A program made the position numbers and the translations under genes. 33,292 bases of DNA from a virus, in IMG/VR virus record IMGVR_UViG_3300028920_000188, positions 1 to 33,292 of that record; one strand, given 5' to 3'. A model generated the notes under the pieces. The model saw only the letters and a list, made by a program, of their open reading frames with translations, ran no database searches and was not told the origin of the DNA. Below are positions 999 through 32,126 of this stretch, in pieces (position 1 is the first letter of the stretch; the number at the start of each line of letters is the position of its first letter).

Positions 999-1394
999 AT
1001 GGCATACCAGATCTACACGGGGATCAGTTCGGCGACGATCTGCGGCGACAGCGTGACCGGGATCCAGTCCTACGGATTTGACGACTCGGTCCCGGCGTTG
1101 ACCGACGTCTCGGATGATGACTTATACGCGCAGGGCGCCGAGAAGGGTGCCGGTGGCGTGCGCTTTAACGTGGTCACCGACGACCCGCTGCACGGCCAGG
1201 CCGCAGGGGACACCGGCTCCGGCGGGTTCACCGAGAAGCAGGGCGGCACCAGCAAGGCGCACACGATCGCCAACCAGGTCGTCGAGACCGTCGGCCGCGT
1301 GGCGTCGAGCCGCAAGGGCAAGGGCAGCAGCTCGATCTCGGGAATCGCCTACAGTTCGGACGGGTCGACCAGTCCGGTCGGCTACCCGTCCTAA
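999..1394 (+). CDS. Probable major tail tube protein
   Basis: A 131-residue protein with a strong ribosome binding site (GAGGAGGT, 983-990) placed 8 nt before ATG. It is small, rich in Gly, Ser, Asp and Thr, and predicted to be mostly beta, with an N-terminal pattern (YTGISSATICGDSVTGIQSYG) typical of small tail tube subunits that open with a beta-hairpin and an Asp-rich loop. It lies between the terminator-like gene and the tail assembly chaperones, the standard position of the tube gene in long-tailed phages. A strong hairpin follows at 1417-1445, which fits a highly expressed structural gene whose transcript is cut off downstream. No single residue proves the function. Confidence 0.6.
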   Translation: MAYQIYTGISSATICGDSVTGIQSYGFDDSVPALTDVSDDDLYAQGAEKGAGGVRFNVVTDDPLHGQAAGDTGSGGFTEKQGGTSKAHTIANQVVETVGRVASSRKGKGSSSISGIAYSSDGSTSPVGYPS

Positions 1395-1408
1395 GTCGGC
1401 GGACGATC
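1394..1408 (-). repeat. Dispersed 15-nt motif, copy 1 (13/15)
   Basis: Minus-strand copy with two mismatches to GGTCGTCCGCCGACC. It directly follows the tail tube stop codon, in intergenic DNA. See the finding on the dispersed motif. Confidence 0.45.
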
Positions 1409-6492: not shown

Positions 6493-7908
6493 GTGGATCC
6501 ATTCGAGCGGGCGAACCTCTGGGAGGAGCTGGCGCGGATCACCGCCGACCTCCGCGCGCTGCAGGCACTGATGCCGGCCGGCGGCGGGACTGCGGCGGCC
6601 GAGGGCGAGACGCCGCCGCAACCTGGCACGCCGGCCGTGCACGTCCAGAAGGAAGGCGACGGGGCGGTCGGCACGAGCTCCGACTTTGTGCCGGCCGATA
6701 CCATCATCGAGCTCCGCCGGCGGGTTGGCGCCGGTCCGGGGACGGCCGTGCCGCATCCCAGCGGCCTCGAGCAGACCGAAGAGGAGGACCGGCTCGGCGT
6801 TATTTGGGAAACCGAATACACCGAGATGGCCGCAATACAGGACAACGTCGGCAGCCAAGGCAGCCGCCGCGCGATCCTGTGCAGTGATCACCATCACGCA
6901 CTCAATCCCGGCGTGGGCCTGCGCTGGAACGGCACCGACCTGGAGGTCTACTTCGCCAACGGGGAGGACCTGACCTGCGAAACGGCCTTCGGCACCGATC
7001 TGTTCAGCGGCGGGACTCCGGGCGGTAACGCATATTTGGGGGAGCGTATTTATCAATACGTAGATGACGACTATGCGCGTCATTTCATGTACCGCTTCAA
7101 CGGCACGATTGGTGCCAAGACCAAGGTGCTCAACGGCGACAACCTCGGTTGGATTGCTTTTGGTGGCTATCATGGTGGCGGTGGATTTGCCGGGAGTGCT
7201 TGGGTTGGCGCAGTAGCCAAAGGAGATTGGGACAGTGCTGGCGTCATACCGGCGGAATTGCAGTTCTACACCGCATCGGACAGTGGAGGGACGCAAAAGG
7301 TCGCCGCGTTCAACAAGGATGGAATTCTAGAGCTACTGCTTGGTGGGCAACTCGCCACCGACAAACAACTTCAGTTCCGCGACTCGGGCATCTTCGCCTA
7401 CAGCCCTGCCGACGGGGTGCTCGGGTTCTCGGCCGACGGTGGGCATTATCGGCTCTATGAGCCAAGCAGTGGTGGAAACTATATCAACGTGGTGGTTCCC
7501 GGTCTTTCCGGGAATTGCAGCTATACACTTCCTTCCGCGCTGCCCGCCTCCGATAAGTTTTTACAGTCCACGTCGGGTGGCGTGATGACATGGGAGACGC
7601 CTGCAGCCGGCGGCGGTTTGTTTTTCACGCCAGTGAACGCCACCAGCCATGCCCTGACCGTAGATGGGGAATGGCACGACTTGGATTTCGGCAACGAGGA
7701 CATCAAAGCGGTGATCCTACAGGTGATCGGCTCTGGTGCCTCGGTGTACTGGCGCAAGGATATGGGCACATCTAGCGGCGGTTCCGGCGCACTGGATAGC
7801 TACGGAGGCATTGTCGTCCCGTGCGTGGATGGGGTCGCTGAGTACAAAGTTGATGCTACTAGCGGCACGTACACCGCATACCTGCATGGGGACTGGTCCT
7901 ACTTGTAG
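6493..7908 (+). CDS. Tail fibre / receptor-binding protein
   Basis: 471 residues, GTG start 2 nt after the hub stop. The N-terminal ~100 residues begin with a helix (FERANLWEELARITADLRALQ), then a Pro/Ala/Gly linker, and probably attach to the hub. The middle (about residues 170-280) carries a typical fibre pattern: LGWIAFGGYHGGGGFAG, then PAELQFYTASDSGG and VAAFNKDGILELL, seen in many trimeric phage fibres. The C-terminal ~100 residues are a Gly/Ser-rich beta domain likely to bind the receptor. Base composition drops in GC from about 6820 onward relative to the 5' part, which fits recombinational exchange of the receptor-binding part. Confidence 0.65.
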   Translation: MDPFERANLWEELARITADLRALQALMPAGGGTAAAEGETPPQPGTPAVHVQKEGDGAVGTSSDFVPADTIIELRRRVGAGPGTAVPHPSGLEQTEEEDRLGVIWETEYTEMAAIQDNVGSQGSRRAILCSDHHHALNPGVGLRWNGTDLEVYFANGEDLTCETAFGTDLFSGGTPGGNAYLGERIYQYVDDDYARHFMYRFNGTIGAKTKVLNGDNLGWIAFGGYHGGGGFAGSAWVGAVAKGDWDSAGVIPAELQFYTASDSGGTQKVAAFNKDGILELLLGGQLATDKQLQFRDSGIFAYSPADGVLGFSADGGHYRLYEPSSGGNYINVVVPGLSGNCSYTLPSALPASDKFLQSTSGGVMTWETPAAGGGLFFTPVNATSHALTVDGEWHDLDFGNEDIKAVILQVIGSGASVYWRKDMGTSSGGSGALDSYGGIVVPCVDGVAEYKVDATSGTYTAYLHGDWSYL

Positions 7909-7930
7909 TAACGGAGGATAGGAGGATAGA

Positions 7931-8380
7931 GTGAAAGACTTACCGGAAAACGAACAAGCCACGCCACGAGTGCCCCGCAAGATAGGGCTGGCCGGTCACG
8001 TGTCTTTGACCCTCGGGCACTACGATGCCGATGGCGAACTAATCGCCGCCTTGCCGCCCGTGAGCGTTCCGGCTGAAGCGTTGCATCCCGACCTGTTCGC
8101 GGCCTTGGAGTCGGCGGCGGTCGAGTTTGTCCACCGCGCAAACGAGGTCAAGCGCATGGAGGCCGAACGCATACGGGCCGAACGCGAGGCGCAGCAGCGG
8201 GTACAGCAGGCGATGGCCGACACTCAGGCGGCGCTGAAGGCCACCCGCGCCGAGATCACCGCCGAGACTGGCCAACACCCGTTGAGCGATGACCCGCGTC
8301 TGGTGGCGCTCAGAGCACGCCGCAAGAAGATCCAAGAGTTACAGGAGGCATTCACGGCTGCCTTGGCTGAAGCCGAGTAA
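7931..8380 (+). CDS. Coiled-coil protein following the fibre gene
   Basis: 149 residues, GTG start preceded by GGAGGATAGGAGG (7915-7927). The first half is a small beta region (KIGLAGHVSLTLGHYDADGEL, residues 18-38). The second half (about 65-145) is a long charged helix rich in Arg, Glu and Ala with heptad-like spacing, predicted coiled coil. Its place directly after the fibre suggests a fibre assembly or accessory protein. I do not recognise the family and can see no catalytic residues. Confidence 0.55.
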   Translation: MKDLPENEQATPRVPRKIGLAGHVSLTLGHYDADGELIAALPPVSVPAEALHPDLFAALESAAVEFVHRANEVKRMEAERIRAEREAQQRVQQAMADTQAALKATRAEITAETGQHPLSDDPRLVALRARRKKIQELQEAFTAALAEAE

Positions 8381-8419
8381 CGCACTCAAGCGCCCGCTGG
8401 GCAAGGAAGGAGGGTCACA

Positions 8420-8704
8420 ATGGCAAAAGAAGGAAAGGACACAACGGAATTCCAGGTCGTCAAGCAGGTCGACTGGTTGGCCAAGGCGGCGATCGTTGTC
8501 GGCTCGCTGCTGGTTGCGCTGCCGGGGATCGTGGAAAAGTTCCCGATCGACAGCAAGGCCGCGATCTGGGGCGGCATCGCCCTCGCCGGCCTGGCACTGG
8601 TGGCCAAGGTGCTGTCGGCGCTGGGTTACACTACCAGCCGCACCCGGCTCAAGGAAGCCGACGCTGCCGCCAAGCTGCCGGACCCGCCGGCCGATGCTGG
8701 CTGA
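8420..8704 (+). CDS. Holin-like two-helix membrane protein
   Basis: 94 residues with a strong ribosome binding site (AAGGAAGGAGGG). Two hydrophobic segments can be seen at about residues 20-41 and 47-70, joined by a short charged turn (EKFPIDSKA), with a charged N-terminus and a basic then Pro-rich C-terminus. This layout, small size and position between fibre and a lipoprotein gene fit a holin, which permeabilises the inner membrane at lysis. The family is not certain from sequence. The 3' end overlaps the next start by 11 nt. Confidence 0.55.
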   Translation: MAKEGKDTTEFQVVKQVDWLAKAAIVVGSLLVALPGIVEKFPIDSKAAIWGGIALAGLALVAKVLSALGYTTSRTRLKEADAAAKLPDPPADAG

Positions 8705-8882
8705 AATCATCGGGCAGGTAGTGCGGGCGATCCTCGAGGCCCTGCTGCCCAACCTGGGGAGGTGGACCAGTGACACGATCGAAGACAGCGCTGCTCCTGC
8801 TACTGCTCGCGAGCGTCTGCTGCGCAGGCTGCGGCACGCGCGTCGTGATTGTGAAGCCAGGCGATCCGGTCCGGCTGCGTGA
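8694..8882 (+). CDS. Small protein overlapping the lysis lipoprotein gene
   Basis: 62 residues starting at the ATG inside the end of the holin-like gene. An amphipathic helix at the start (EIIGQVVRAILEALLP) is followed by a polar linker and an Arg-rich C-terminus. The last 113 nt are shared in another frame with the lipoprotein gene that starts at 8770. Nested or overlapping frames are typical of spanin pairs, in which an inner-membrane protein overlaps an outer-membrane lipoprotein. The N-terminal helix is short and only weakly hydrophobic, so assignment as an inner-membrane spanin is doubtful. Confidence 0.45.
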   Translation: MLAEIIGQVVRAILEALLPNLGRWTSDTIEDSAAPATARERLLRRLRHARRDCEARRSGPAA

Positions 8883-9009
8883 GCCGCTGCGCAACGTCAA
8901 GGTCTGGGCATACGACGGCAAGGGCCAGCTGGTGCCCGGGGTAGCAGACGAGATCGGTGCGGGTTGGTGGTGCATCGATACGATGGAGGCGATGGCGCCG
9001 GCCAAGTAG
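8770..9009 (+). CDS. Small lipoprotein, lysis-associated (outer spanin candidate)
   Basis: 79 residues, GTG start with GGGGAGGTGG (8757-8766) as binding site. A basic N-terminus (TRSK) and a leucine run lead to CCAGC, with Cys21 as the likely lipidated residue; the -3 position is Cys rather than the usual Leu, so the lipobox is near-canonical. The mature part is short and beta-like: VVIVKPGDPVRLREPLRNVKV, then a second strand pair and a WWC motif near the end. Placement after the holin-like gene suggests a role at the outer membrane during lysis. Alternative: a superinfection-related surface lipoprotein. Confidence 0.55.
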   Translation: MTRSKTALLLLLLASVCCAGCGTRVVIVKPGDPVRLREPLRNVKVWAYDGKGQLVPGVADEIGAGWWCIDTMEAMAPAK

Positions 9010-9023
9010 GTCGTCCGCCGACC
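9009..9023 (+). repeat. Dispersed 15-nt motif, copy 2 (exact)
   Basis: Exact GGTCGTCCGCCGACC beginning on the last base of the lipoprotein stop, in the convergent intergenic gap. Confidence 0.6.
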
Positions 9024-9130: not shown

Positions 9131-9553
9131 CTATTTCTCGGCGGTGGCCTCGTCGAGTTGCTTCTGCTGCTCCTCGAGCTTCGCGATCTGCTCGCGGAGC
9201 TCCGCGGCTTGGGCCTCGGCGCTCTTGAGCAGCTTGCGGTAGCGCCCGATCTCGAGCTCGGTGCGGGCCAGCTGCTGCCCGAGTCGCCAGGCGTTATATC
9301 CCGGGGTCGGCTTCTGCGGCAGCGGCTGGCCCTTGACCGTCAACCGGTGACCGTGTCCCAGGCAGGTCGGGCACCAGCGTCGGGAGGTGGTCTTGCCGCG
9401 TTTCCAGGTCCGGTAACCCAGGCCGCCGCAGTCGGCGCACTTGACGCGCACCGCCTCGACCGAAACCTTGCGGGCCTGCTCGCCGGCGCCGGCGGCGCAG
9501 ATCAGCACCGCGGCGGCCAGCGCTGCCGCCAGTATCATTCCTGCTCGTCTCAT
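9131..9553 (-). CDS. Secreted DnaJ-type zinc-finger / coiled-coil protein
   Basis: 140 residues on the minus strand, ATG preceded by AAGGAGG. Residues 1-24 form a signal peptide (MRRAGMILAAALAAAVLICA, then AGAGE). Residues 38-75 contain CADCGGLGY and CPTCLGHG, the CxxCxGxG pair that makes one DnaJ-type zinc site. Residues 95-140 form a coiled coil rich in Glu, Gln and Lys. The combination suggests a periplasmic, self-associating zinc protein. The start overlaps the stop of the membrane protein gene upstream (ATGA), so the two are one operon. Function unknown; an envelope role such as superinfection exclusion is a guess from secretion and opposite transcription. Confidence 0.7.
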   Translation of the reverse strand: MRRAGMILAAALAAAVLICAAGAGEQARKVSVEAVRVKCADCGGLGYRTWKRGKTTSRRWCPTCLGHGHRLTVKGQPLPQKPTPGYNAWRLGQQLARTELEIGRYRKLLKSAEAQAAELREQIAKLEEQQKQLDEATAEK

Positions 9554-9768
9554 CGATCGCCTCCTTGTCGAATACGCGAGGAGTCCGGCCGGTCCGGTCG
9601 CACGTCGACCGCGCCGCAGCCTCGCAGCCCTGAGATCACGATCGCGACCAGCGCGACCAGCACCAACAGGATCGCGGTGAGAGTGTGGCGGGTGTGGATC
9701 GTTTCGACCAGCAGCTTGCGCTGCAGGTCGATCTGGATCTCGCACTGTTCCTCGAGGTGCTTGTCCAT
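9550..9768 (-). CDS. Small single-span membrane protein
   Basis: 72 residues on the minus strand. I chose ATG 9768 (MDKHLEEQCE) because GGGAGAGGGA lies just upstream; a start 12 codons earlier lacks a binding site and would overlap the promoter start. A polar helix (residues 1-25) precedes a hydrophobic segment at about 27-46 (LTAILLVLVALVAIVISGL), followed by a polar, Asp/Arg-rich tail. It is the first gene of the leftward two-gene operon and overlaps the next gene by 4 nt. Function unknown. Confidence 0.65.
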   Translation of the reverse strand: MDKHLEEQCEIQIDLQRKLLVETIHTRHTLTAILLVLVALVAIVISGLRGCGAVDVRPDRPDSSRIRQGGDR

Positions 9769-9795
9769 TCCCTCTCCCCAGGTCCTGCCGCAAAC

Positions 9796-9824
9796 AGTAT
9801 ACACGATGCCCGCGGCCTGGCCAA
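9796..9824 (-). promoter_or_regulatory. Leftward sigma-70-type promoter
   Basis: On the minus strand TTGGCC (9824-9819), 17-nt spacer, TATACT (9801-9796). The start of transcription would be near 9788, about 20 nt before the ATG at 9768. It drives the two-gene minus operon. Confidence 0.6.
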
Positions 9825-9826
9825 CC

Positions 9827-9839
9827 GATTACAGGAATC
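9827..9839. promoter_or_regulatory. Possible operator, imperfect palindrome
   Basis: GATTACAGGAATC has GATT/AATC arms plus an inner C:G pair and lies 2 nt upstream of the -35 of the leftward promoter. A regulator site is possible; no copy elsewhere was found by eye. Confidence 0.3.
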
Positions 9840-10005
9840 ACCCGCCGGCGTAATGGCCCGGGCGGTCTGCTGGCTGCCTCCTGGCGCCGCTGTAGTCGCC
9901 CAGGAGCGACGATCGGGGGCCGCCGCGACACTCTGGACCCTCGCCTCCCAGGGCCCTGCGTAACCGGCGCAATAAGGCGGCTTGTCATTTTCGCAAAAAT
10001 AGGGA

Positions 10006-11295: not shown

Positions 11296-11687
11296 CAGAG
11301 ATGCTATCCGAGACCTTGACGACCAGGCAGGTCGCGCAGCTGGCGCGGCTCGCCGAGGGAACGGTCCGCTCGCACGTCTGGCAGCACCGGGTGACCGGCG
11401 GCCGGCTCGGCCTGCGCAAGCGCCGGCTGGGCAGCCGGGTGCTACACCTGGCCGACGTCCTGGATTGGTTGGACCGCATCGGGCGCTTGCCGGCAACGCT
11501 GCGGCCGCGGCTGCAGCAGTACCTCGAGGCCGGCGAGGTCGTCCGCCGATCGCAGCGGGGGCGGCCTCGTGAGCTCCGCGGAGATCCAGGAGCTGCGCGA
11601 CGAGCTGGCCAGGCTGCTCGCCTTTGTGGGGCCGGCGCCGTCGAGCGAGAGCCACGCGCATCACATCAACGAGATCCGCGACGATAA
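11292..11687 (+). CDS. Helix-turn-helix DNA-binding protein (MerR/excisionase-like)
   Basis: 131 residues, GTG start with GGAGGTGAG (11279-11287). Residues 10-57 form a compact HTH: LTTRQVAQLARLAEGTVRSH, a wing-like basic turn GLRKRRLGSRV, then LADVLDWLDR, the layout of excisionase or MerR-type HTH_17 domains. The tail after about residue 90 is Arg/Gly-rich and overlaps the next gene by 119 nt, so this tail may be a shadow of that frame and the domain proper is the first ~90 residues. Likely a transcription regulator or excisionase-like accessory protein; no integrase is visible. Confidence 0.55.
   Translation: MTEMLSETLTTRQVAQLARLAEGTVRSHVWQHRVTGGRLGLRKRRLGSRVLHLADVLDWLDRIGRLPATLRPRLQQYLEAGEVVRRSQRGRPRELRGDPGAARRAGQAARLCGAGAVEREPRASHQRDPRR
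11537..11551 (+). repeat. Dispersed 15-nt motif, copy 3 (14/15)
   Basis: GGTCGTCCGCCGATC inside the HTH gene, encoding V-V-R-R-S in that frame. Confidence 0.5.
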
Positions 11688-11974: not shown

Positions 11975-11978
11975 GTTG

Positions 11979-13505
11979 GTGACTCAAGTGCTGCAGGTTG
12001 ATGTCAAGCGATTGCGGAGCAAGAACGTCCGAAAGCATTTCGACCCGGAGCGACTCGAGCAGCTCGCGGCGCAGATCAAGGCGCACGGGGTGCTCGAGCC
12101 GTTGATCGTGCAGAAGGTGAAGGGCAACGGCAGTCTCGAGATCGTCGCCGGGGAGCGGCGCTGGCGCGCTGCGAAGCTGGCCGGCCTGGCCAAGGTGCCG
12201 TGCCTGGACCAGGGTGCTCTGAGCGAGCTGGACCGGCTCCGGATCCAGGCCAGCGAGAACCTGGGCCGCGAGGACCTGACGCCGCTGGAGGAGGGGGAGA
12301 TCTACGAGCAGCTGCTCGGCGCCGGGATGAAGGTCGAGGACCTCTGCAAGGAATTCGGCAGGTCCAAGACCTACGTCAACGATCGGCGCCGCCTGGCGGG
12401 GATGCCGGCGCCGGTGCTCGACCTGGTCAAGCGCGACAAGATCACGATCACGCACGCGCAGGCCCTGGTCGGGCTCGGCGAGCGCCGGCAGACTGAGCTC
12501 GCCCAGAAGGCCGCCGCCGAGCAGCTGACGCCAGGCGAGCTCCGGGAAGTGCTCACGCGGCGCAAGGTCTACCTCCGGCTGCCCGACTTCACCAAGCTCA
12601 AGGCCAAGCTCGGTTCGGGGCACCCGCTGAGCACCTGCGCAACGTGCGAGAAGGTCGTCGCGGGGTGCAAGGTCTCGGGATGGGAGTCCGGTTGTCCCTG
12701 GTCCTGGAACGGGTTTGGCCCGGCGCCGATTAAGTGCCGGGCGCGCAAAAGCAGCTGCAAGACGGTCGCGCTTTGTCCCGATGGCGAGTGCCGGGCGATG
12801 AAGGCCCGCCAACTGGTGCAGGATTACAAGGCGCGGAACCCGGAGCACACCAAGCTGCGCGCAAAGCAGTTTGGCCAGGAGGGCAGGGAGCCCTGGCACA
12901 ACGAGTACAACGGGCGATCGAAGTACTGCCGGCAATGCTCGCACGCCTCGCGATGGTTGGAAGTGGATTGGCGGGGGGTGCATTTGCGCGGCGGGTGCGG
13001 AGCGCAAAACTGTCCTGGGAGCAAGTGCAAGGACCCGGCCAAGTACATCAAGGCAGCCAAGAACGCGGACGAGGTCGGCGAGCTCAATCGGCAGCGCGAG
13101 GCCGAGAGGGAGAAGAAACGCCAGGCGCAGATCCGGGAGCTCTCGGATCAACTGCCCGCGGTTGGCGCGGCAGCGCTGGATCGAGCGTTGACGCCCAACG
13201 ACTGGAAGGCGATAGGCAAGGCATTCCTGGGCTACCAGGAAAAGAAGAGTCCGGAGGCGCGCTTCCTGGCGCGTTTGAAGCTCAAGACCGCGGACCTGGA
13301 AAGCGGGCGCTGGCCGAAGAATTGGAGCGTCGAGAAGCGGATCAAGACGCTGGTCGTCTATCGGGCGATATCGCGCGCCACGCGGGGATGGGACGCAACG
13401 CCAAAGGGCATCGGCAGCTTGATCCGCGAGCTGGGCGGCAAGGCCAAGGCGCCGCCCAAGCCCAAGCCCAGGGCCAGGAAGGCCAAGCTTAGGCTCAAGA
13501 AGTAG
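11979..13505 (+). CDS. ParB-like protein with Cys-rich insertion
   Basis: 508 residues. I chose GTG 11979 over TTG 11976 because AGGGAGGTG (11963-11971) is better spaced. Residues 18-75 are a ParB N-terminal domain; GERRWRAA (58-65) is the box that binds CTP in ParB proteins. ENLGREDLTPLEEGEIYEQL (93-112) leads into an HTH at about 118-138 (KVEDLCKEFGRSKTYVNDRR), the parS-binding unit. Residues ~205-345 contain about 15 Cys and several His in clusters (CATCEKV, CRQCSHA, CGAQNCPGSKC), a probable zinc domain seldom found in chromosomal ParB. The end is Lys/Pro-rich. No ParA is encoded nearby. Possible roles: plasmid-like maintenance, genome compaction or gene regulation. Confidence 0.75.
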   Translation: MTQVLQVDVKRLRSKNVRKHFDPERLEQLAAQIKAHGVLEPLIVQKVKGNGSLEIVAGERRWRAAKLAGLAKVPCLDQGALSELDRLRIQASENLGREDLTPLEEGEIYEQLLGAGMKVEDLCKEFGRSKTYVNDRRRLAGMPAPVLDLVKRDKITITHAQALVGLGERRQTELAQKAAAEQLTPGELREVLTRRKVYLRLPDFTKLKAKLGSGHPLSTCATCEKVVAGCKVSGWESGCPWSWNGFGPAPIKCRARKSSCKTVALCPDGECRAMKARQLVQDYKARNPEHTKLRAKQFGQEGREPWHNEYNGRSKYCRQCSHASRWLEVDWRGVHLRGGCGAQNCPGSKCKDPAKYIKAAKNADEVGELNRQREAEREKKRQAQIRELSDQLPAVGAAALDRALTPNDWKAIGKAFLGYQEKKSPEARFLARLKLKTADLESGRWPKNWSVEKRIKTLVVYRAISRATRGWDATPKGIGSLIRELGGKAKAPPKPKPRARKAKLRLKK

Positions 13506-13519
13506 GTCGGCGGGCGACA
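13505..13519 (-). repeat. Dispersed 15-nt motif, copy 4 (13/15)
   Basis: Minus-strand variant directly at the end of the ParB-like gene, overlapping the last base of its stop codon. Confidence 0.4.
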
Positions 13520-14273: not shown

Positions 14274-14617
14274 TGAGATGCACCGGATGGTGCAATTTGG
14301 GGGCTGATCCCCAGATCACAACCAGCCGCGGCCAGGAGGGAGGGCAGGTCAACCATCGGGCCTACTTCCGGGCCGCGTTCAACCATCGGTACAAGTCCGG
14401 CGGCCGAGACATCAAGGAAACGGTCTGGATGAACTGCGTAGCCTGGGGGAGGACGGCGCGGCAGATGGAGGCCGCGAGGCTCGAGAAGGGCCAGCGGATC
14501 TACATCGTCGAGGGCAGGCTAAAGCAGCAGGAGAGGTGCGATGATAATGGCAACCAAACCCTCGCCGCCGAGCTCGTCGTCTACCAGTTCGCGATCTCGC
14601 CGCCCAAGGTCGGCTGA
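14273..14617 (+). CDS. ssb: Single-stranded DNA-binding protein
   Basis: 114 residues, ATG overlapping the previous stop by one base, with GAGGAGGT (14259-14266) as binding site. An OB-fold can be followed: N-terminal strand MRCTGWCNLGADPQI, a variable Gly/Gln loop, RAAFNHRYKSGG, then the diagnostic WMNCVAWGRTARQMEAARLE and GQRIYIVEGRLKQQ (residues ~50-83). This strand-helix-strand order with VxWgrxA...kGxxiyveGrL is the SSB signature. The acidic C-terminal tail of cellular SSBs is missing; the protein ends at the OB-fold (AISPPKVG). It coats DNA during phage replication. The 3' end overlaps the sigma-like gene by 77 nt. Confidence 0.8.
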   Translation: MRCTGWCNLGADPQITTSRGQEGGQVNHRAYFRAAFNHRYKSGGRDIKETVWMNCVAWGRTARQMEAARLEKGQRIYIVEGRLKQQERCDDNGNQTLAAELVVYQFAISPPKVG

Positions 14618-15128
14618 GCGGGAGCAGCTGGCCGCCCGGTACCTGGCGGCCTCGTGCAACCTGGCGAAGTGTATCGCCGCCTCGCTGGCGCCGGACCCGA
14701 CGCCGATCGACTGCGAGGCGATCGGCCAGGAGGCACTGCTGGCGGCGCTCGAGCGCTATGATAAGCGCTGCTCATTCCCAACGCTGCTCTACCTCATCAC
14801 AAAGCGGCGGATCGTCGACGCGATCCGCAAGGCGGCCGGGCGCGGGCGCCAGGCGCGGCCGACGATGCGCAGCCTCGAGGAGATGCGCGAGCGGGCCGGG
14901 CATTGGGCGGATCCCGTCGCGGTCCAGGAGGGAGACACCGGCGCGGTCGAGCGCTGTCGGCGGCTGTTCCGCTGCGGGTTGACTCCGCAGCAGCACGAGC
15001 TGCTATGCGTGCTGTGCCTGTGCGACGGCGATCGCCAGGCCGCCGGCGAGGTCCTGGGGATCGCCGGCACCCGGGTCAGTCAGTTAATCAGCCAGATCCG
15101 CCAGCGGGCGGTCGAGGGAGGTGTGTAG
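14541..15128 (+). CDS. Sigma-70-family (ECF-like) factor
   Basis: 195 residues. ATG 14541 has AGGAGAGG (14529-14536) upstream; ATG 14547 is an alternative. After a Ser/Arg linker, residues ~57-100 match region 2 (EAIGQEALLAALERYDKRC, then FPTLLYLITKRRIVDAIRKA), the part that binds the -10 element. Residues ~146-190 are a region 4 HTH: LTPQQHELLCVLCLCDGDRQ, then AAGEVLGIAGTRVSQLISQI. Regions 1 and 3 are absent, as in ECF factors. A phage-encoded sigma would redirect host RNA polymerase to middle or late promoters. The overlap with ssb (77 nt) couples the two. Confidence 0.65.
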   Translation: MIMATKPSPPSSSSTSSRSRRPRSAEREQLAARYLAASCNLAKCIAASLAPDPTPIDCEAIGQEALLAALERYDKRCSFPTLLYLITKRRIVDAIRKAAGRGRQARPTMRSLEEMRERAGHWADPVAVQEGDTGAVERCRRLFRCGLTPQQHELLCVLCLCDGDRQAAGEVLGIAGTRVSQLISQIRQRAVEGGV

Positions 15129-18954: not shown

Positions 18955-19506
18955 ATGGGCAAGGCAGAGGAGCAGATCGCGGCCTACAAGGCCAGGAGAG
19001 CGGCAGAGGCCGCGGCCAGGGCCTCGAGGCCTGCGCGGTCGTCCGCCGACCGTACCAAGTCGGTCAAGGGCAAGCGCAAGCCCGGGCCGGTCCGCGGTTG
19101 GTGGGATCTGCTCAAGCGCTGGATAGAGCACGGGGGATACGGGCGGCTGCCGGGCAAGTCGGCCAAGCTCTACGTCGTCCTGCTCAAGCTCACCAGGCGC
19201 TGCCGGCGGGCCAAGGGCGACGTCGTCGGCGAGTACAAGGGCGGGTACAGCCGCCTGGCCGCGCTATGCGGCGGGGTGCACAATGACACGGTCGGGCGCT
19301 GGATGTGGGCGCTGGTGCAGCAGGGGATGATCCGCAAGCGCCAGGTCAAGAGGGCCGTCGCCGGCGGAATGACGAGCTCGGTGATCGTCGAGGTCCTCAA
19401 CGCACCAGAGGCCAAGCCGGGCGACGATTCTGCGGGCCTGTTCGCCGGCGAGGATACACCGCAGGACAGTAGGCCTAGCGCTGCAGCTGAGTCCGAGAGC
19501 GGATAA
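18955..19506 (+). CDS. Winged-helix DNA-binding protein, replication-associated
   Basis: 183 residues, ATG with GGGGGAGGAGG just before it. After a basic Ala/Arg/Ser N-terminus, residues ~58-150 form a winged helix: KSAKLYVVLLKLTRRC, YSRLAALCGGVHNDTVGRWM, WALVQQGMIRKRQVKR and a beta wing. The fold resembles DnaD/replication-initiator or GntR-like wHTH modules. It lies directly after the helicase and directly before the candidate origin, which favours an origin-binding or helicase-loading role, though a repressor is possible. Confidence 0.6.
   Translation: MGKAEEQIAAYKARRAAEAAARASRPARSSADRTKSVKGKRKPGPVRGWWDLLKRWIEHGGYGRLPGKSAKLYVVLLKLTRRCRRAKGDVVGEYKGGYSRLAALCGGVHNDTVGRWMWALVQQGMIRKRQVKRAVAGGMTSSVIVEVLNAPEAKPGDDSAGLFAGEDTPQDSRPSAAAESESG
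19037..19051 (+). repeat. Dispersed 15-nt motif, copy 5 (exact)
   Basis: Exact GGTCGTCCGCCGACC within the winged-helix gene, encoding R-S-S-A-D-R there. Confidence 0.6.
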
Positions 19507-19589: not shown

Positions 19590-19613
19590 TAGGGCGGCGA
19601 TCGCGTGGGCCTT

Positions 19614-19634
19614 CTCTCTCTCTTAGAGAGAGAG
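19614..19634. repeat. CT/AG palindromic tract
   Basis: CTCTCTCT pairs with AGAGAGAG around a CTTAG loop (8 bp). Confidence 0.5.
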
Positions 19635-19639
19635 TCCCT

Positions 19640-19666
19640 GCGAAGCTGGACGATGTCCTGCTTCGC
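19640..19666. other. Strong hairpin
   Basis: GCGAAGC-T-GGAC-GAT-GTCC-T-GCTTCGC: 7 bp plus 4 bp around one T:T mismatch, with a 3-nt loop. Confidence 0.55.
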
Positions 19667-19807
19667 GGGGGTTGGTGTTGGTCGGGAGGTGTCCTGGAGA
19701 GGGCGAGGCCTGGGTGTGCGTGTGGGGTTGGTCGGTGGGGGAAGGGTTTAGTACAAGGGGTTGTGGTTCGGTGGTTCGGGGCGGTCGATATAACGCGCCC
19801 GAATACC

Positions 19808-19845
19808 GCATCCAACCAGCTGGCAGGCGCTTGCGGGTTGGATGC
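19808..19845. other. Inverted repeat with inner pairing
   Basis: GCATCCAACC (19808-19817) pairs with GGTTGGATGC (19836-19845), 10 bp; inner bases 19818-19835 allow further short pairing. Confidence 0.5.
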
Positions 19846-19947
19846 AACGCAACATACCGTTGATTATCGGACGTTGGGGCCAGACCCCCAGCGCTGCCTG
19901 GCTGCGCGCGTGCACTCCCGGCCTTTTGTGCGTGAGATTTCAGCGAT

Positions 19948-19974
19948 CGGAAAAACGCGCGCGAAAAACGCGCC
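19948..19974 (+). repeat. A-tract short repeats, copies 2 and 3
   Basis: Two adjacent copies of GAAAAACGCGC with starts 13 nt apart, about 30 nt before the small terminase start. Confidence 0.45.
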
Positions 19975-20001
19975 GGAAGGCCGCGCCCTGGGGGCCCGGC
20001 T

Positions 20002-20616
20002 GTGAGCGCCCGCAAGCCGCGCTCGGACAAGGGCGGTACGCACGATATGACGCCGGCCGGCCGCGAGCAGTGCGCCCTGGGGGCCACAAAGCACGGGGTG
20101 TACGCATTCCTCCGGAGCGGCATGTTGCCCGGCTGCCAGCAGTGCCCGCTGGGCGAGGAGTGCGACAGCTACCACATCGAGCACTTGAGCTGTCCGGTGA
20201 TGAGCCAGCAGATGGAGGCGGTCGTCCAGGCGGTAACGCGCGAGAGCTGGATCAAGGACGCCGATAGTCCCCTCGTGATCGAGTACGTCAAGACGACGAT
20301 GGTCCTGGCCCTCATCGACCGCGCGGTCGGGATCGACGGGCCGCTGCTCACATACAAGGGCGTGCAGGCCAAGGAGCCCAAGAAGCCCGGCGAGGCCTAC
20401 GAGGTGCCCTGCGTTTTGCACGACGTACACCCGCTGCTCAAGCTCAAGGCCGGGTACACCAAGGCCCTCGCAGCGCTCAGCGAGCAGCTGGGCTTGAGTC
20501 CCAAGGCCCGCAAGATGCTCGGCACATTCAAGCCCGACGAGAATGCCAAAGAGGCCGATTACGAGGAGATCGCCGGCGAGCAGTCGGCGGACGACCAGGA
20601 GGAGGATGCCAAGTGA
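20002..20616 (+). CDS. Small terminase subunit candidate
   Basis: 204 residues, GTG start. Residues 32-65 contain GVYAFLRSGMLPGCQQCPLG and further Cys/His residues (CQQCPLGEEC, then CPV), probably a zinc site. Residues ~55-115 are helical and 145-175 form a helix LKLKAGYTKALAALSEQLGL followed by SPKARKML, a segment common in P27-type small terminases. The C-terminus is acidic. It precedes the large terminase by one small gene, the usual order, and would recognise the packaging site for DNA loading. The remaining doubt comes from the absence of a clear HTH. Confidence 0.55.
   Translation: MSARKPRSDKGGTHDMTPAGREQCALGATKHGVYAFLRSGMLPGCQQCPLGEECDSYHIEHLSCPVMSQQMEAVVQAVTRESWIKDADSPLVIEYVKTTMVLALIDRAVGIDGPLLTYKGVQAKEPKKPGEAYEVPCVLHDVHPLLKLKAGYTKALAALSEQLGLSPKARKMLGTFKPDENAKEADYEEIAGEQSADDQEEDAK
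20582..20596 (-). repeat. Dispersed 15-nt motif, copy 6 (14/15)
   Basis: Minus-strand copy inside the 3' end of the small terminase-like gene, encoding S-A-D-D there. Confidence 0.55.
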
Positions 20617-20963
20617 GTCGGAGACCTTGCGTAAAGAGCACGATGGAGGGGACGGTCGAGCTGGTGCTCCAGGAGGCCCGGGACCAGGTCCTGCAGGGCA
20701 AGGGCGAGCAGCGGCACGGCCGCGGCCGGCGTTTCGAGGAGCAGGCCACGCCGAAGATCCTGGACCTGTTCGGGCCGGGTTACGCTGCCGGCCAGGCCGC
20801 CAAGAAGGTCGAGGAGGCGCTCGGCCTGCTCGAGGTGCAGCCGGCGATCGCAAAGCGCAATGAGCTGGATGAGATCTTCGCGCGCGCCGACCGCGACCTG
20901 CTGGGCGCGATCGGCTACCTGGCGATCCTGGCCGCCTGGCTCCGGGAGAGGCGGGTGCGCTGA
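20613..20963 (+). CDS. Small helical protein between terminase genes
   Basis: 116 residues, GTG start overlapping the previous stop by 4 nt; ATG 20643 is an alternative. The sequence is helical, with a segment QARDQVLQGKGEQRHGRG-like followed by FEEQATPKILDLFGPGYAAG and a final hydrophobic helix LLGAIGYLAILAAWLRE. This layout recalls short phage proteins of the MazG/dUTPase-like helical class, but no metal-binding Glu cluster is clear. Its stop overlaps the large terminase start (ATGA-type junction at 20963). Function unknown. Confidence 0.5.
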   Translation: MSRRPCVKSTMEGTVELVLQEARDQVLQGKGEQRHGRGRRFEEQATPKILDLFGPGYAAGQAAKKVEEALGLLEVQPAIAKRNELDEIFARADRDLLGAIGYLAILAAWLRERRVR

Positions 20964-22453
20964 TGGTTCGCCCGGCTCCCCGCCTGGATGTTATCAAGTT
21001 CTGCGAGGATCCTCGCCTGCTCAACTTCCGGCCCTGGCCGGTCCAGGAGGTGATCCTGCGGGCGCAGTTCGGCCTGGAGATGCCCGAGCGCCTGCTGCCC
21101 TTGTGGAAAGAGATTGTTTTGCCCAGGGGGATCCCCTACCGGCCGCGCTGGTATACTCAGCTGGTCCTGGCGATCGGCCGGCGGGGCGGCAAGACGCGAA
21201 TCACGCGCGCGGCCAAGGCCTACGAGGCGATCGAGCACAACCCGGCGCAGTACGTGCCCGCAAGCGAGCATTGTATCCTGCCGATCGTGGCGACCAGTCA
21301 AGGCATCGCGCGCGACGTGTTTGTGGCGACCGCGCTGCGCGAGCTCAAGCAATCAAAGGCGCTCCGCGCCCAGATTGTATGGGACGATTACAAGGTCCGG
21401 CACGGTCGAGAGGTCACCAATCGGGATCAGATCGTATTTAAGAACCGCACAATTCTGCGGGCTTTTCCCTGCACCTCGACGGCCGTGCTGGGATACGAGG
21501 GCGCGAGCCCGACATATGACGAGATCGCGAAGTACTCGCTGGAGACCTCGTCCCCCCGCGGCGATCTGGAGGTGATGCGGAACCTGCAACCAGTGACGCT
21601 CAACCTGACCAACCGGGGAGTGAGCCAGGTGTCTATGATCTCGAGCGTTCGGGCCAAGGAAGGGCAGTTTTTCGAGGCGGTAAGCAAGGCCGAGCAGCGC
21701 ATCGACTGGCAGCTCACTATCCTCTGTCCCAGCTGGGTCGCCAACCCCAATTGGAATTGGGATGTAATGCGCCAGGAGCAGGAGCGCGACCCGCTGGGCT
21801 TCTCGATGGAGTACGGCAGCGAGTTCGCCGAGCAGGTCGAGGGCCTATTTACCGTCGAGCAGATCAACCGCGCGCTAGTCGACCGCGGGCCGCTGCTGCC
21901 GATCCCCGGAGTGGTCTATTGGGGCCGGGTGGATCCGGCATTCGTGGGGGACAACTTCGGCCTCGGGGTCGGTCACGCCGAGGGCGAGACGACCCGCATC
22001 GACGCCCTCGAGGCGATCGAGCCGCCGAAAAAGGGAGCGATCAGCGTCGAGAAGGTGCTGGACCGCTGGGAGGCCCTGCACAAGCAATACAGGGTGCGCA
22101 AGTGGCGAATCGACCAGTATGCCGGCGAGGTCCTGGCGCAGGCGGCGAGGGCCAGGGGGATCCCGGTCGACGTCGAGCCCTGGAGCCAGGGCTACAAAAA
22201 GACGATTTACTCAACCTTGACGAGTCAAATGCGCAGCGGGCACTTTGAGGCGGCCGAGCACCCGATCCTGCGCCGCGAGCTGCTCCGCCTGCAGCAGCGG
22301 ACGACCAAGAGCGGCCAGGTTTCGATCGGCCACCCGCCAGGGCGGGGCGAGACCGACGACCTGGCCGACGTATCCGCTGGATTATCACACGATTGCGCAA
22401 CCGGCCGGCGCACCGGCAAGCGCCGGAAATGGAATTCCCGCGCGATTCGGTGA
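20963..22453 (+). CDS. terL: Terminase large subunit
   Basis: 496 residues, ATG start overlapping the previous stop. The N-terminal ATPase has Walker A GRRGGKTR (72-79) and an acidic pair Asp186-Glu187 (SPTYDEIAK) as Walker B. The C-terminal RNase H-like nuclease shows Asp324 (GRVDPAF), Asp384 (WRIDQYAG) and Asp466/Asp469 (DDLADVSAG). It would drive DNA into the empty head and cut it. The last ~25 residues are Arg/Lys-rich and may be a tail extension. Confidence 0.85.
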   Translation: MVRPAPRLDVIKFCEDPRLLNFRPWPVQEVILRAQFGLEMPERLLPLWKEIVLPRGIPYRPRWYTQLVLAIGRRGGKTRITRAAKAYEAIEHNPAQYVPASEHCILPIVATSQGIARDVFVATALRELKQSKALRAQIVWDDYKVRHGREVTNRDQIVFKNRTILRAFPCTSTAVLGYEGASPTYDEIAKYSLETSSPRGDLEVMRNLQPVTLNLTNRGVSQVSMISSVRAKEGQFFEAVSKAEQRIDWQLTILCPSWVANPNWNWDVMRQEQERDPLGFSMEYGSEFAEQVEGLFTVEQINRALVDRGPLLPIPGVVYWGRVDPAFVGDNFGLGVGHAEGETTRIDALEAIEPPKKGAISVEKVLDRWEALHKQYRVRKWRIDQYAGEVLAQAARARGIPVDVEPWSQGYKKTIYSTLTSQMRSGHFEAAEHPILRRELLRLQQRTTKSGQVSIGHPPGRGETDDLADVSAGLSHDCATGRRTGKRRKWNSRAIR

Positions 22454-22533
22454 TTTTACGTGCAACTTACGCTGTTTCAGTCCGAAAAACACTCAGCCAG
22501 CCCGGGGAACCGCTGCCGCGTGCATCCGCGAGG

Positions 22534-24057
22534 ATGCCAGTGTCAGTCAGTACTGAGGATCTCACCAAGTTCATCAAGACCAACGTCCTCGGCGAGTCCG
22601 CGCGGCGCTCCAGCGCCAAGAAGTGGCTCGAGTACTACGAGGGCGACCAGGTCAAGCACATACCCAAGAACCCGCACGAGGACACCGGTCACTTTAACGC
22701 GCGTCCCAAGTTTACTTTCAACGTCACGCGCCGCATCATCGACCTCAAGGAAACGCTCTACGCCGAGGATCCGGTCCGCGAGACCGCCGACCAGGACGTC
22801 CGGCAATTCTGGGAGCAGGTCGGGATCAGCGAGCGCCTCCGCGAGATCCGGCCGGCGCGTCGCCTATGCGGTACCGTGTTCGCGTTCCCGGACTATGTCA
22901 CGCCCAAGCGCGCCTGGTGGAAGCGGCTGTCGTCCTGGCTGTTTGCGCTGCCCAAGGAAGGGCATTTTGTGCTGCGCACCTATACGCCCAATCAGGTCGA
23001 GGTGATGCTGGATCCGTATGACCCGGAGATCCCGCTGGCTGTCTGCCTGATCTCCGGCGGAGTCACGGGCGACGGCAAGAGTATCACTGTCACGCAGGCC
23101 TGGAGCGCCGAGAAGTACTGGCGCTACGAGGGGGACAAGGTCGTCGACGAAAAGGATCATCCCTTCCGGCGGATCCCGCTGGTATGCCTGCGGCACTCTC
23201 CGAGCTACCTGCGCAATTTCTGGGGCCGCGGCGAGGGCGATAACATCGTCGACGACAACCAGGAAATAAACGTCATGCTCAGCTCGATGCTCTGGCTGGT
23301 AAAGTGCCAGAGTCACGGGCAGCTGGTCGCCAAGAACGCGCCCGAAAACTGGCAGCCCGAGCTGGGGCCGGACACGATCGTCACGATCTACGAGGACCCG
23401 AGCCTCGAGGGCGACGTCGACCTCAAGATCCTTGAACCGGCCAGCGACGCCAAAGGCGTAATGGAGGTGATCAACAATCTGCTTGATGTGCTGTGCATGG
23501 CCAACGATGTCCCGGCCGGGACCTATCGCCTGGGCATCAACCGCGAGAGCGGCCTGGCCATCACCGCCAAGCAGACCGATATCCGTGACGAGCGCAAGCG
23601 CAACCGCCCGACCGCGCTGGCCGAGGAGCGCCAGCTCGCGGCAATGGCCCGCATCGTCAAGGCCGGCCGGCTCAATAAGCCGCTGCCGACCGACATGCCG
23701 GAGATCCGGATCAACTACCGCGAGCCCGCGCGCGTGCTGGCGGCGTCCGAGGAGGTCCAGGTCGAGACGCACGAGCTGGCGACCGGCCAGGCGACAGTGC
23801 CGCAGCTGCTGATGCGCAAGGACCCGGATCTCACCGAGGAGGAGGCCAAGGCGCGGCACGCCGCGAACCTGGCTTACAACCGAGAGCACGCCGCGGCCGG
23901 CGTCGAGTCCTCGCTGGCGGCTGCGCCGGCGACTCCGGCGGCCAGGCAGACGGCCGACGCGATTCTCGGCGCCCTTAATGAGGGCGGGACACCCGGGGAG
24001 GGCGAGGTGCAGAACCCGCAGCCGATACTCGAGCCCGGTGAGGACGGTGTAGCTTGA
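22534..24057 (+). CDS. Portal protein
   Basis: 507 residues from ATG 22534; GTG 22450, overlapping the large terminase stop, is an in-frame alternative 28 codons upstream, and neither has a strong binding site. The order of features is typical of SPP1-type portals: an N-terminal helix, KFTFNVTRRIIDLKETLYAE, a central region with RRIPLVCLRHSPSY and DNQEINVMLSSML (stem/clip), and a long C-terminal acidic tail. It forms the dodecameric DNA channel of the head. Called from position after terL and from size, with motif likeness. Confidence 0.75.
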   Translation: MPVSVSTEDLTKFIKTNVLGESARRSSAKKWLEYYEGDQVKHIPKNPHEDTGHFNARPKFTFNVTRRIIDLKETLYAEDPVRETADQDVRQFWEQVGISERLREIRPARRLCGTVFAFPDYVTPKRAWWKRLSSWLFALPKEGHFVLRTYTPNQVEVMLDPYDPEIPLAVCLISGGVTGDGKSITVTQAWSAEKYWRYEGDKVVDEKDHPFRRIPLVCLRHSPSYLRNFWGRGEGDNIVDDNQEINVMLSSMLWLVKCQSHGQLVAKNAPENWQPELGPDTIVTIYEDPSLEGDVDLKILEPASDAKGVMEVINNLLDVLCMANDVPAGTYRLGINRESGLAITAKQTDIRDERKRNRPTALAEERQLAAMARIVKAGRLNKPLPTDMPEIRINYREPARVLAASEEVQVETHELATGQATVPQLLMRKDPDLTEEEAKARHAANLAYNREHAAAGVESSLAAAPATPAARQTADAILGALNEGGTPGEGEVQNPQPILEPGEDGVA

Positions 24058-25818: not shown

Positions 25819-25878
25819 CGCGCCGGGACTGCAAAGCACGCGCGGGCGCACCAGGCAGGGTCACCAGAGGGAAGAATC

Positions 25879-26829: not shown

Positions 26830-26886
26830 GCAGTCCCGGCCGACAGCGCCGGTGGCGTGACCCGCCGGAGGTTGTCGACCGTGCTC

Positions 26887-26946: not shown

Positions 26947-29082
26947 ATGGCCAAGAGAGACCGCAGTCCAGTCTACATGATCAACTCGGCGGGCCGGGAA
27001 GTGTGCTTTCCGGCCTACATTGCCGAGGAGAAGCTCGCCGAGGGGTTCCGCCGTGTAGAGCAGGAACCCGCCGGCGAGTCTCCCCTCGGCGCTGCCGTGT
27101 CCGCGGCGGTCGCCGGGCTGCCGGAGCCCAGGGTCGTCCGCCGACCTCGCCGCGAGCGGCCGGTCCTGCTGGCCTTCCTGGAGCGCATCGACGCCCAGGG
27201 CGGCGGCGGCGAGATGTCCAAGGCCGCTATCCTGGCCGGCTGTGCCGTGGCCGGCTTTGACGTGCACCTGGCGGTCGTCGCGGATCCTGGCGACGTCTCG
27301 CTCGCGTGCCTCAAGAGCCTGCGGCACCTCCCGCAGCCCGACGGGCCGCTCGAGGACCTGCTGCGAGAGCTGGATCCGGACGTCGCGGTCAGTGGCGCCG
27401 AGGCGCTCGAGACCTTGACGCCGGTCGCCGGCAAGCTGGGGATCCCGGTGCTGGCCCTGGTGCAGTTCTGGCGCAACATCCTGCCGACCTGCTCGCCGGA
27501 GGAGTGCGAGCACCTCCCGCGGCTCGCCGACCGGTCGGAGATCTACGAGCACGGCCTCCGGGTCCTGGCCGGCGCCGCCGGCGTGATGGCCAACAGCAGC
27601 TTTTCGGCCGAAGTGGTGCAAAGCGCGCTGGGCCGGCCGCCCGATGTGATCTGCCGCCCGACGATCGACGCCGCGCTATTTACCGCCGCGGCGAAGCGGC
27701 GCGCCAAGTACCGCGGGAAAAAGGTTGTCCTGCTGCCCAGCGGACAGAAGGCCAAGGGCGCGGAGATCTTCCTGGCGCTGGCCAAACGCTTTCCGCGGGA
27801 GAAGTTCCTAATTCTGGCACCGCGCGACCTGCCGGCCGACCTGCCCGAGAACGTCTCGACGCTCGAGTGGCTCGACGATATGCCGGCGTGCCTGGCGCGC
27901 TGCAAGGCTGTCTTTGTCGGCACGCAGACCGCCGAGAGTTTCTGCCGCAGTGCGGCGGAGGCGCGGGCGGTTGGCGTGCCGCTGCTGGTCAGTGACGCCG
28001 GGCACTTGCCGATGTTTGTGGGCAACGGCGGCGGCCTGGTCGTCCCCAAGGGCGCGCCGCTCGACGAGTGGGCGGACGCTTTCGCGCAGGTCCTCAAGCT
28101 CAAGCCCGAGCCGGATCCCAGCTGGTGCGTCAACGAGACCGGCCGGGTGGCGCGCCTGGCGCTCGAGCTGGCGGCCTGCCGGCGCGTGCGCCTGGTCCTG
28201 GGCGGCGGGCCTGGCAGCCGCGAGGCCGCCCGCCAGCTGGCCGCCTGCACCGGCGCCCAGCTCGGCCGGGCCGGCGACAGCCTCGCCGGGTCCGACCTGG
28301 TCGTCATGGTCGGCAGCGTCGAGCAGGGCGTGCTCCGCAGCTGCCTCGAGAAGGGCGTGCGGGTCGCGACCTGGTGGTGCAGCCACCTGGCGCAGATGGA
28401 CACCAGTCCCGAGGAGCAGCAGCGATTCCTCGAGGCGCTGCACCTGCTCAAAAGCGGCCACCTCTGGCGCCTGCTGGTGACCAGCGAGCACATGCCCGAC
28501 CTCGAGGGCGTTGTGCACTTGCCCAACCCGTTCCGGCCGGCGGTGCGCCCGCTGGTGCCGGATCCTGCCAGGTTCAAGGTCCGGACCGTGGCGATTGTCG
28601 GCCCGGCCAGGCCCGGCAAAAATCTCTGGGCCGCGGCCGAGGCGGTGCGCCGGTTCGGAGCGCGCCTGGCGCTCTCGCCCTCGCTGGCGAAGCGCGGCCA
28701 GCTCGTCGAGTACTGCGAGGCGATCGGCCTGGAGACGATCCAGCTCGAGCCCACGCCGGCCAACCTGGCGCAGTGCCACGCCGGGATCTGTGCGTCACTC
28801 ACCGAGACATTCTGCTTCGGCGCCGCCGAGCTGCTGGCGGCAGGTCTGCCGGTCGCCGGTAGTACGCTGGTTCCCGCGTTGTGGGGCGACGGCGAGGTCT
28901 ATCCGATCCGGACCGCTGCGGATCCAACAGATCCCGGCGAGCTCGCCAAGTGTCTCGAGGCCTGCCTGGCGGAGTTCAGTGATCCGGGATACGCGCGGCA
29001 TTACGCGGCCGCGCTCAGCTGCGAGACGACCAGCACCGCGCGATCGGCGCTGTCGGCGATCGCGCAGGAGGCGGTGCGGTGA
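26947..29082 (+). CDS. Two-module GT-B glycosyltransferase
   Basis: 711 residues, ATG 26947 with GGGGAGG 6 nt upstream. Residues 1-40 form a short beta motif (VYMINSAGREVCFPAYIAEE). From about residue 60 a Rossmann-type GT-B fold begins (LLAFLERIDAQGGGGEMSKA), with its nucleotide-sugar half near 260-400: VLLPSGQKAKGAEIFLALAK, LEWLDDMPACLARCKAVFVG, then ESFCRSAAEARAVGVPLLVS. A second GT-B pair starts near 415 (RLVLGGGPGSREAARQLAA) and ends with ETFCFGAAELLAAGLPVAGS, a donor-binding E-x7-E-type segment. So two GT4-like modules may be fused. It may glycosylate the virion or the host surface. Confidence 0.7.
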   Translation: MAKRDRSPVYMINSAGREVCFPAYIAEEKLAEGFRRVEQEPAGESPLGAAVSAAVAGLPEPRVVRRPRRERPVLLAFLERIDAQGGGGEMSKAAILAGCAVAGFDVHLAVVADPGDVSLACLKSLRHLPQPDGPLEDLLRELDPDVAVSGAEALETLTPVAGKLGIPVLALVQFWRNILPTCSPEECEHLPRLADRSEIYEHGLRVLAGAAGVMANSSFSAEVVQSALGRPPDVICRPTIDAALFTAAAKRRAKYRGKKVVLLPSGQKAKGAEIFLALAKRFPREKFLILAPRDLPADLPENVSTLEWLDDMPACLARCKAVFVGTQTAESFCRSAAEARAVGVPLLVSDAGHLPMFVGNGGGLVVPKGAPLDEWADAFAQVLKLKPEPDPSWCVNETGRVARLALELAACRRVRLVLGGGPGSREAARQLAACTGAQLGRAGDSLAGSDLVVMVGSVEQGVLRSCLEKGVRVATWWCSHLAQMDTSPEEQQRFLEALHLLKSGHLWRLLVTSEHMPDLEGVVHLPNPFRPAVRPLVPDPARFKVRTVAIVGPARPGKNLWAAAEAVRRFGARLALSPSLAKRGQLVEYCEAIGLETIQLEPTPANLAQCHAGICASLTETFCFGAAELLAAGLPVAGSTLVPALWGDGEVYPIRTAADPTDPGELAKCLEACLAEFSDPGYARHYAAALSCETTSTARSALSAIAQEAVR
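27132..27146 (+). repeat. Dispersed 15-nt motif, copy 7 (exact)
   Basis: Exact GGTCGTCCGCCGACC inside the first glycosyltransferase gene, encoding V-V-R-R-P there. Confidence 0.6.
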
Positions 29083-31638: not shown

Positions 31639-32126
31639 TGCGGGTGACTGTTTCGGTCGACGGTGCTCGGTTCGCGGTGCGGCTGCGCCGCGCTGCCGAT
31701 CGCGTCGGCGATCCCTCGCCGGGCCTCGAGCGGGCCGGGTTCTACATGCTGCTGCAGCTCTGGGAGCGGATCGTCCGCCGACCGGTGCAGGTGTACTCGG
31801 CCAGATATCTGCGCTGGCTGTCCCGCAACGGTGAGCTCTCCGGCAAGCTCTGGGGGATCCTGACCGGCGACCTCCTGGGCCAGAGTGCGCCGATCGACGG
31901 CGCGCCCTCGAGTGCCGATATGGGCGCCGAGCTGCACCAGGCGGGCACCTCGATAACCGTCGGGCACCTCAACCCGGCCAGCGAGCCCAAGGCGCGCGGG
32001 TTCGGCGAGATCTATCGCTCAAAGTTCCGGGAGTGGCCCTACGCGCCCAGGCCCGGCGACGAGAGCGACGTCGGCGAGGTGCTGCAGGAGTGGCTGGCCG
32101 AAGCGCTGAGCAGGGAGGAATCGTGA
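31638..32126 (+). CDS. Tail-completion / virion morphogenesis protein
   Basis: 162 residues, GTG start overlapping the previous stop (TAGTG). An alpha/beta protein with N-terminal strands (VTVSVDGARFAVRLRRAADR), a helix (GFYMLLQLWERIVRRP), and a C-terminal motif GFGEIYRSKFREWPYAPRPG like the 'proximal tail/gpG-type' morphogenesis proteins. Position after the connector supports a neck or tail-completion role. Low-GC accessory genes follow. Confidence 0.6.
   Translation: MRVTVSVDGARFAVRLRRAADRVGDPSPGLERAGFYMLLQLWERIVRRPVQVYSARYLRWLSRNGELSGKLWGILTGDLLGQSAPIDGAPSSADMGAELHQAGTSITVGHLNPASEPKARGFGEIYRSKFREWPYAPRPGDESDVGEVLQEWLAEALSREES
31769..31783 (+). repeat. Dispersed 15-nt motif, copy 8 (14/15)
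   Basis: GATCGTCCGCCGACC inside the tail-completion gene, encoding I-V-R-R-P there. Confidence 0.5.

Follow-up and report, generated by a model that had tools for sequence, protein, structure and literature searches.

The 15-mer GGTCGTCCGCCGACC is scattered in about eight copies across the genome of an uncultivated phage. There are more copies than expected, and three have orthologous counterparts in a relative, preserved as islands in diverged DNA. Judging from these sequence comparisons, the 15-mer is very likely a real protein-binding site. The reading tentatively favored here over binding by ParB, though at somewhat less than even probability, is that the copies are dispersed candidate operator or roadblock ("stoperator-like") sites, to be bound by a regulator that both phages would encode. 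The lineage has no cultured member, and it illustrates clearly how dispersed DNA sites can stay in place as the genome around them diverges. The comparison yields a defined 15-mer and a few proteins as candidate readers.

Copies of the 15-mer in the virus record

The window is the full 33,292-base IMG/VR virus record IMGVR_UViG_3300028920_000188, positions 1 to 33,292. It is mostly forward-coded, has a GC content of 66%, and includes genes for a DnaB-like helicase, SSB, an SPP1-like portal, a terminase, and the major capsid protein. A search of the whole window found no ParA-type ATPase, tyrosine integrase, or HTH_3 repressor. A second record, IMGVR_UViG_3300031111_000090 (L062, 6.9 kb), is 100% identical to window positions 19599-26514.

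A first-pass annotation had listed eight copies of the motif, and a recount agrees with it on every position, strand, and mismatch tally. Three copies are exact (9009, 19037, and 27132), three have one mismatch (11537(+), 20582(-), and 31769(+)), and two have two mismatches (1394(-) and 13505(-)). The sites are as follows, with G001 denoting the relative described in the next section.

1394..1408, minus strand: site GATCGTCCGCCGACT, two mismatches; last stop base of gene 999-1394 and the non-coding DNA after it; ortholog at G001:23082(-)
9009..9023, plus strand: exact site; last stop base of gene 8770-9009; the relative has no homologous region
11537..11551, plus strand: one-mismatch site; in a small HTH_17-like gene (about 11298-11687; weak HTH_17 match), in its 3' part
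13505..13519, minus strand: site TGTCGCCCGCCGACC, two mismatches; last base of the parB stop
19037..19051, plus strand: exact site; in gene 18955-19506 (winged-helix-like protein), close to the 5' end; ortholog at G001:5256(+)
20582..20596, minus strand: one-mismatch site; in the small terminase gene, close to its 3' end; the ortholog is an exact site, G001:6797(-)
27132..27146, plus strand: exact site; in glycosyltransferase gene 26857-29082, which is missing in the relative
31769..31783, plus strand: one-mismatch site; in gene 31431-32126; the orthologous stretch of G001 reads CATCGCCGGCCGCCC and holds no site

The least certain of the eight is the site at 13505. The consensus is GRTCGTCCGCCGACC, in which the core, CG[TC]CCGCCGA, is invariant and the arms are nearly symmetric (6/7 pairs). 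This decamer occurs eight times in the window, always within the sites, where 1.4 occurrences are expected. A further two-mismatch copy, at 30530(+), is probably a chance match because it lacks the core.

Codon-preserving shuffles, a check proposed in the first-pass annotation, give mean counts of 0.003, 0.09, and 0.94 at ≤0, ≤1, and ≤2 mismatches, against 3, 6, and 9 observed. Markov models were run up to order 5, and the order-5 model expects 0.004 exact copies and 0.10 at ≤1 mismatch. In a look-elsewhere test, the best 15-mer of 23 codon shuffles reached at most four copies at ≤1 mismatch, compared with six for the window 15-mer. At ≤3 mismatches there are 16 matches in the window versus 4.4 in dinucleotide shuffles, and the three-mismatch copies are at background level. 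The 15-mer also ranks first among all 14-17 bp near-palindromes of the window, with a log10 p of -8.4 (-3.5 for the runner-up; -2.4 at the lowest in window shuffles).

The sites are single copies spaced 1.5-7.6 kb apart, and several are inside genes. Five are on the plus strand and three on the minus strand along mostly forward genes, so both orientations relative to transcription are used. The window has no cluster of sites marking a promoter and no iteron-like array or clustered copies at one place. Read by eye, the site flanks contain no conserved upstream element for a bipartite promoter.

Within genes, the motif had been said to fall in different reading frames. Three distinct readings are present, V/I-V-R-R (11537, 27132, and 31769), S-S-A-D (19037), and Q-S-A-D-D (20582), but V-V-R-R and I-V-R-R, given earlier as separate cases, are the same frame. 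The description of three copies at stop codons is accurate: the sites at 1394, 9009, and 13505 each begin precisely at the final stop-codon base. Two of these (1394 and 13505) are two-mismatch copies. The overlap with the stop codon is not conserved, since the relative's counterpart of 1394 is located about 11 nt beyond the stop.

Conservation in a relative without ParB

An exact-motif scan of IMG/VR returned 53 stretches with one exact copy each, and L043 is the only true relative of the window among these contigs. This relative, G001, is IMGVR_UViG_3300029267_003811 (35,659 bases). It has matches to 20 window proteins, mostly at 31-52% identity and in largely the same order. Its ends carry a 134-bp direct terminal repeat and are thus consistent with a complete genome.

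G001 contains three copies of the 15-mer at ≤1 mismatch, where 0.07 are expected. The first-pass annotation had called for comparing site positions in related phages, and each of the three copies has a window ortholog on the same strand: 23082(-) pairs with 1394(-), 5256(+) with 19037(+), and 6797(-) with 20582(-). The annotation had named absence of the sites from related phages as a refutation, and this outcome was not seen. The motif is 14/15 identical in each pair, while the flanks are 26-49% identical (23/90 at 1394, 44/90 at 19037, and 38/90 at 20582). The chance of three such orthologous coincidences is roughly 1e-8, for conservation seen in one independent relative. One of the three conserved sites, the counterpart of 1394, is in non-coding DNA after a tail gene. 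The earlier proposal of selection on DNA rather than protein is borne out, because the 15-mer is a conserved island between diverged flanks and one copy is non-coding. The remaining comparable site, 31769, has not been kept in G001.

Two further observations concern the capsid region. A bare core, CGTCCGCCGAC, is present at G001:13756(+), about 45 nt past the relative's major capsid gene, and is perhaps a degenerate additional site. In the window, positions 26857-30071, between the capsid gene and the later structural genes, hold two adjacent glycosyltransferase-like genes for which no counterpart was found in the relative.

The two phages also differ in gene content. The window carries ParB (11976-13505) and no tyrosine integrase or HTH_3 protein, whereas the relative carries a tyrosine integrase and two HTH_3 proteins; the regions concerned are the 9131-9988 region and 11976-13505 of the window and G001:30409-31548. 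No ParB_N domain, HTH_ParB domain, or meaningful tblastn match to the window ParB is present in G001. Cluster A mycobacteriophages offer a precedent for this difference, since related phages there have the integrase swapped for partition genes, parABS (PMC7157519).

Searches of IMG/VR with patterns of the window proteins (ParB, TerL, and helicase), and of GTDB with ParB, found no close relative except the identical 6.9-kb fragment. Distant MCP and TerL sets are 22-33% identical, and the MCP set served as control loci. A TerL prophage search of ~720 genomes of two phyla gave matches of only 23-28% identity, without the motif, and TerL had no close relative in plasmid and phage records.

Candidate readers of the sites

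Four proteins of the window are considered as readers:

11976..13505, plus strand: ParB-like protein of 509 aa with ParB_N, HTH_ParB, a Cys-rich region, and a Lys-rich tail; the binder proposed in the first-pass annotation
14541..15128, plus strand: sigma-like protein, common to the window and the relative; candidate reader
18955..19506, plus strand: winged-helix-like protein; HTH_36 weakly matches its homologue in the relative; the gene holds a conserved site; candidate reader
20002..20616, plus strand: small terminase (TerS), common to the window and the relative; the gene holds a conserved site; candidate reader

In the favored explanation, a DNA-binding protein encoded by both phages would read the sites. 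This regulator may occupy positions 1.5-7.6 kb apart on a mostly forward-transcribed genome, and once bound would block or meter transcription in the fashion of stoperators. Candidates are the sigma-like protein (14541-15128), the winged-helix-like protein (18955-19506), TerS, or a repressor outside the family models. An operator or roadblock function is suited by the near-symmetry (6/7 pairs), the three stop-codon sites, and the wide spacing. Against it stand the mixed orientation, which is unlike stoperators, the genic sites, the lack of a promoter cluster in the window, and the single independent relative. A shared repressor is hypothetical, since the window lacks an equivalent of the one HTH_3-type repressor gene pair in G001.

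Stoperators of cluster A mycobacteriophages, e.g., L5, resemble the window sites in being short, conserved, and scattered over the genome, and they are often in short intergenic spaces, much as the window sites are frequently at gene ends (PMC6550527, PMC9283540). The 1.5-7.6 kb spacing of the window sites is a further point of resemblance. They are kept in related phages with an integrase or with parABS (PMC7157519); the sites described here are kept in one relative, with eight dispersed copies in the window and three in G001, all three orthologous. A stoperator is 13 bp long and asymmetric; each genome has >20 of them, and nearly all point the same way relative to transcription (PMC6550527, PMC9283540). 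In contrast, the window sites are 15 bp, nearly symmetric, about eight in number (three in the relative), in both orientations (five plus, three minus), and several are genic, with no recognized repressor.

The first-pass annotation had considered binding by the encoded ParB-like protein a natural hypothesis. The window does encode such a protein with an HTH, and its ParB_N and HTH_ParB domains are intact. Its sequence matches structures of Spo0J, Noc, and KorB, and predicted CTP binding is plausible because the GERRWRA and ENLGRE stretches are retained. The consensus ParA-binding motif is absent from it. At Caulobacter positions 173, 179, 184, and 201 it has K, R, G, and T, where Caulobacter ParB has R, T, A, and G and Noc has Q, K, K, and R (PMC7383237). 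The parS and NBS sites of ParB and Noc, like the palindromes of the surveyed phage ParBs described in the last section, are 14-16 bp, often dispersed, and often have one copy inside parB. Unlike these systems, the window has neither a match to canonical parS, TGTTTCACGTGAAACA, within 3 mismatches nor a copy of the palindrome GTGCAGACGTCTGCAC.

The 15-mers could be putative parS- or KorB-operator-like loading sites of this ParB. Multi-site loading and sliding of a CTP clamp would then serve partition or long-range regulation, with recent loss of ParB in the relative. This is possible, though rather unlikely. In addition to the two domains, it draws on analogy with the many phage ParB loci that have dispersed palindromes, one copy in parB, and a site class that tracks the recognition helix; phage VarioGold, for example, has six palindrome copies, one of them in parB. 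The 15-mer is the best dispersed near-palindrome of the window, no better one is found near the window parB, and a copy adjoins the parB stop. A partition function would also make sense in a window without an integrase. The strongest evidence against ParB as the reader is that G001, which has no ParB, keeps three nearly intact orthologous sites, so that in this one relative site and ParB do not co-occur. If ParB were the reader, the G001 lineage would have lost it very recently, because only 1 of the 45 site bases in G001 is outside the variants seen in the window. Furthermore, the copy at parB has two mismatches, and the chance that one of eight sites falls in or at parB is ~1/3. The window has no ParA, and the asymmetric core and odd-centered dyad are unlike the even palindromes of 14-16 bp found for other surveyed phage ParBs. 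The case for ParB is weakened, and the reader is probably another protein, given a site-bearing relative without ParB.

The 13-bp core of the KorB operator is TTTAGCSGCTAAA, and the window sites differ from it in sequence. Like the window sites, the operators of plasmid RK2 are dispersed odd-centered dyads on a small replicon (PMC11790492). KorB, which the window ParB matches by sequence, is a long-range repressor and a CTP clamp of the ParB type (PMC11790492), and work cited in that paper gives 12 operators per RK2 plasmid. The window has neither KorA nor ParA, and the relative has sites without ParB. On a broader view that is unlikely, the sites would be where a sliding clamp, a phage protein of the ParB type, loads to regulate or organize the whole genome. 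The site network would outlast the ParB-integrase exchange, and orphan phage ParBs would be widespread genome-wide clamps with their own dispersed site codes.

Replication or packaging is an improbable role, in which the copies would be putative sites of the winged-helix-like (initiator-like) protein or of the small terminase. The iterons of lambda O are within gene O, and the pac site of P22 is within the small terminase gene. Two of the three conserved sites are within exactly these two genes, at the same place and on the same strand in both phages. However, the copies are single, with no iteron array near either gene, and an origin or pac has no need of about six more dispersed sites, one of them conserved after a tail gene.

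A host DNA-binding protein as the reader is less probable still. It would require no phage gene and would fit sites kept by both phages, but among the matches listed in GTDB, and in IMG/VR, the motif occurs as scattered single copies, with no motif-rich organism.

The motif could instead act as RNA, in the form of a small hairpin (a terminator or mRNA element), since the GGTCG/CGACC arms allow a 5-bp stem and three copies come after a stop codon. This is very improbable and was rejected: arm variation is uncompensated, the surrounding folds are no stabler than background, both strands are used, and there is no T-run and no match to an Rfam family. Chance or codon usage has almost no probability; GC-rich low-complexity words are likewise over-represented in this genome of 66% GC, but the codon shuffles, the Markov models, and above all the orthologous conservation in the relative refute it.

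Palindromes of phage ParBs

Orphan phage ParBs are largely uncharacterized (PMC12704722). A survey covered 80 IMG/VR loci with ParB relatives (L213-L292), with ParB-less phage loci as controls. The 16-bp palindrome GTGCAGACGTCTGCAC, at ≤3 mismatches, has 116 matches in 1,238 kb of ParB loci versus 4 in 1,014 kb of controls, counts that are not independent because many of the ParB loci are related to one another. It is present in the locus of 39 of the 48 ParBs with Tyr/Phe 175 and Arg/Val 179, in 36 cases inside parB, and in none of 13 canonical-helix ParB loci. The ParBs paired with it have a GKS[RK]xYxY helix (GKS[RK]xYxYxRLKL type), e.g., at L248:10719, L251:10731, and L264:9305. The cultured phage VarioGold (L500) has its six copies at 5756, 15561, 21002, 29452, 31899, and 37753, and the cultured phage Aval has the palindrome at L499:5488. 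GTGCAGACGTCTGCAC probably serves as parS for a widespread group of orphan phage ParBs.

The palindrome signal is specific to the recognition-helix class. An unspecific palindrome excess in ParB contigs over controls is not significant (12/75 vs 3/46, Fisher p 0.16). About half of the canonical-helix ParBs carry parS/NBS-like sites instead. Under the published ParB/Noc specificity rule, Gln173 specifies adenine 1 and Arg201 specifies cytosine 6 (PMC7383237), and several canonical-helix ParB sites agree with it. The survey suggests that the sites of orphan phage ParBs are readable from genomes, and it points to VarioGold and Aval as cultured examples.

Three observations concern individual loci. 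The L282 parB (6930-8906) has the Noc residues Q173, K184, and R201, and four NBS-like sites, ATTTCCGGGGAAAT, are found at 3345, 7680, 10799, and 17742, one of them within parB, as the published specificity code predicts. The L221 ParB (Q173, S201) has the site TATTTCACGTGGAATA, with sites at L221:3189 and 12013. The canonical-helix ParBs with Gln173 (L221, L213, L220, L222, L223, and L271) have an A1 variant of parS (ATTTCAC-GTGRAAT type) inside parB.
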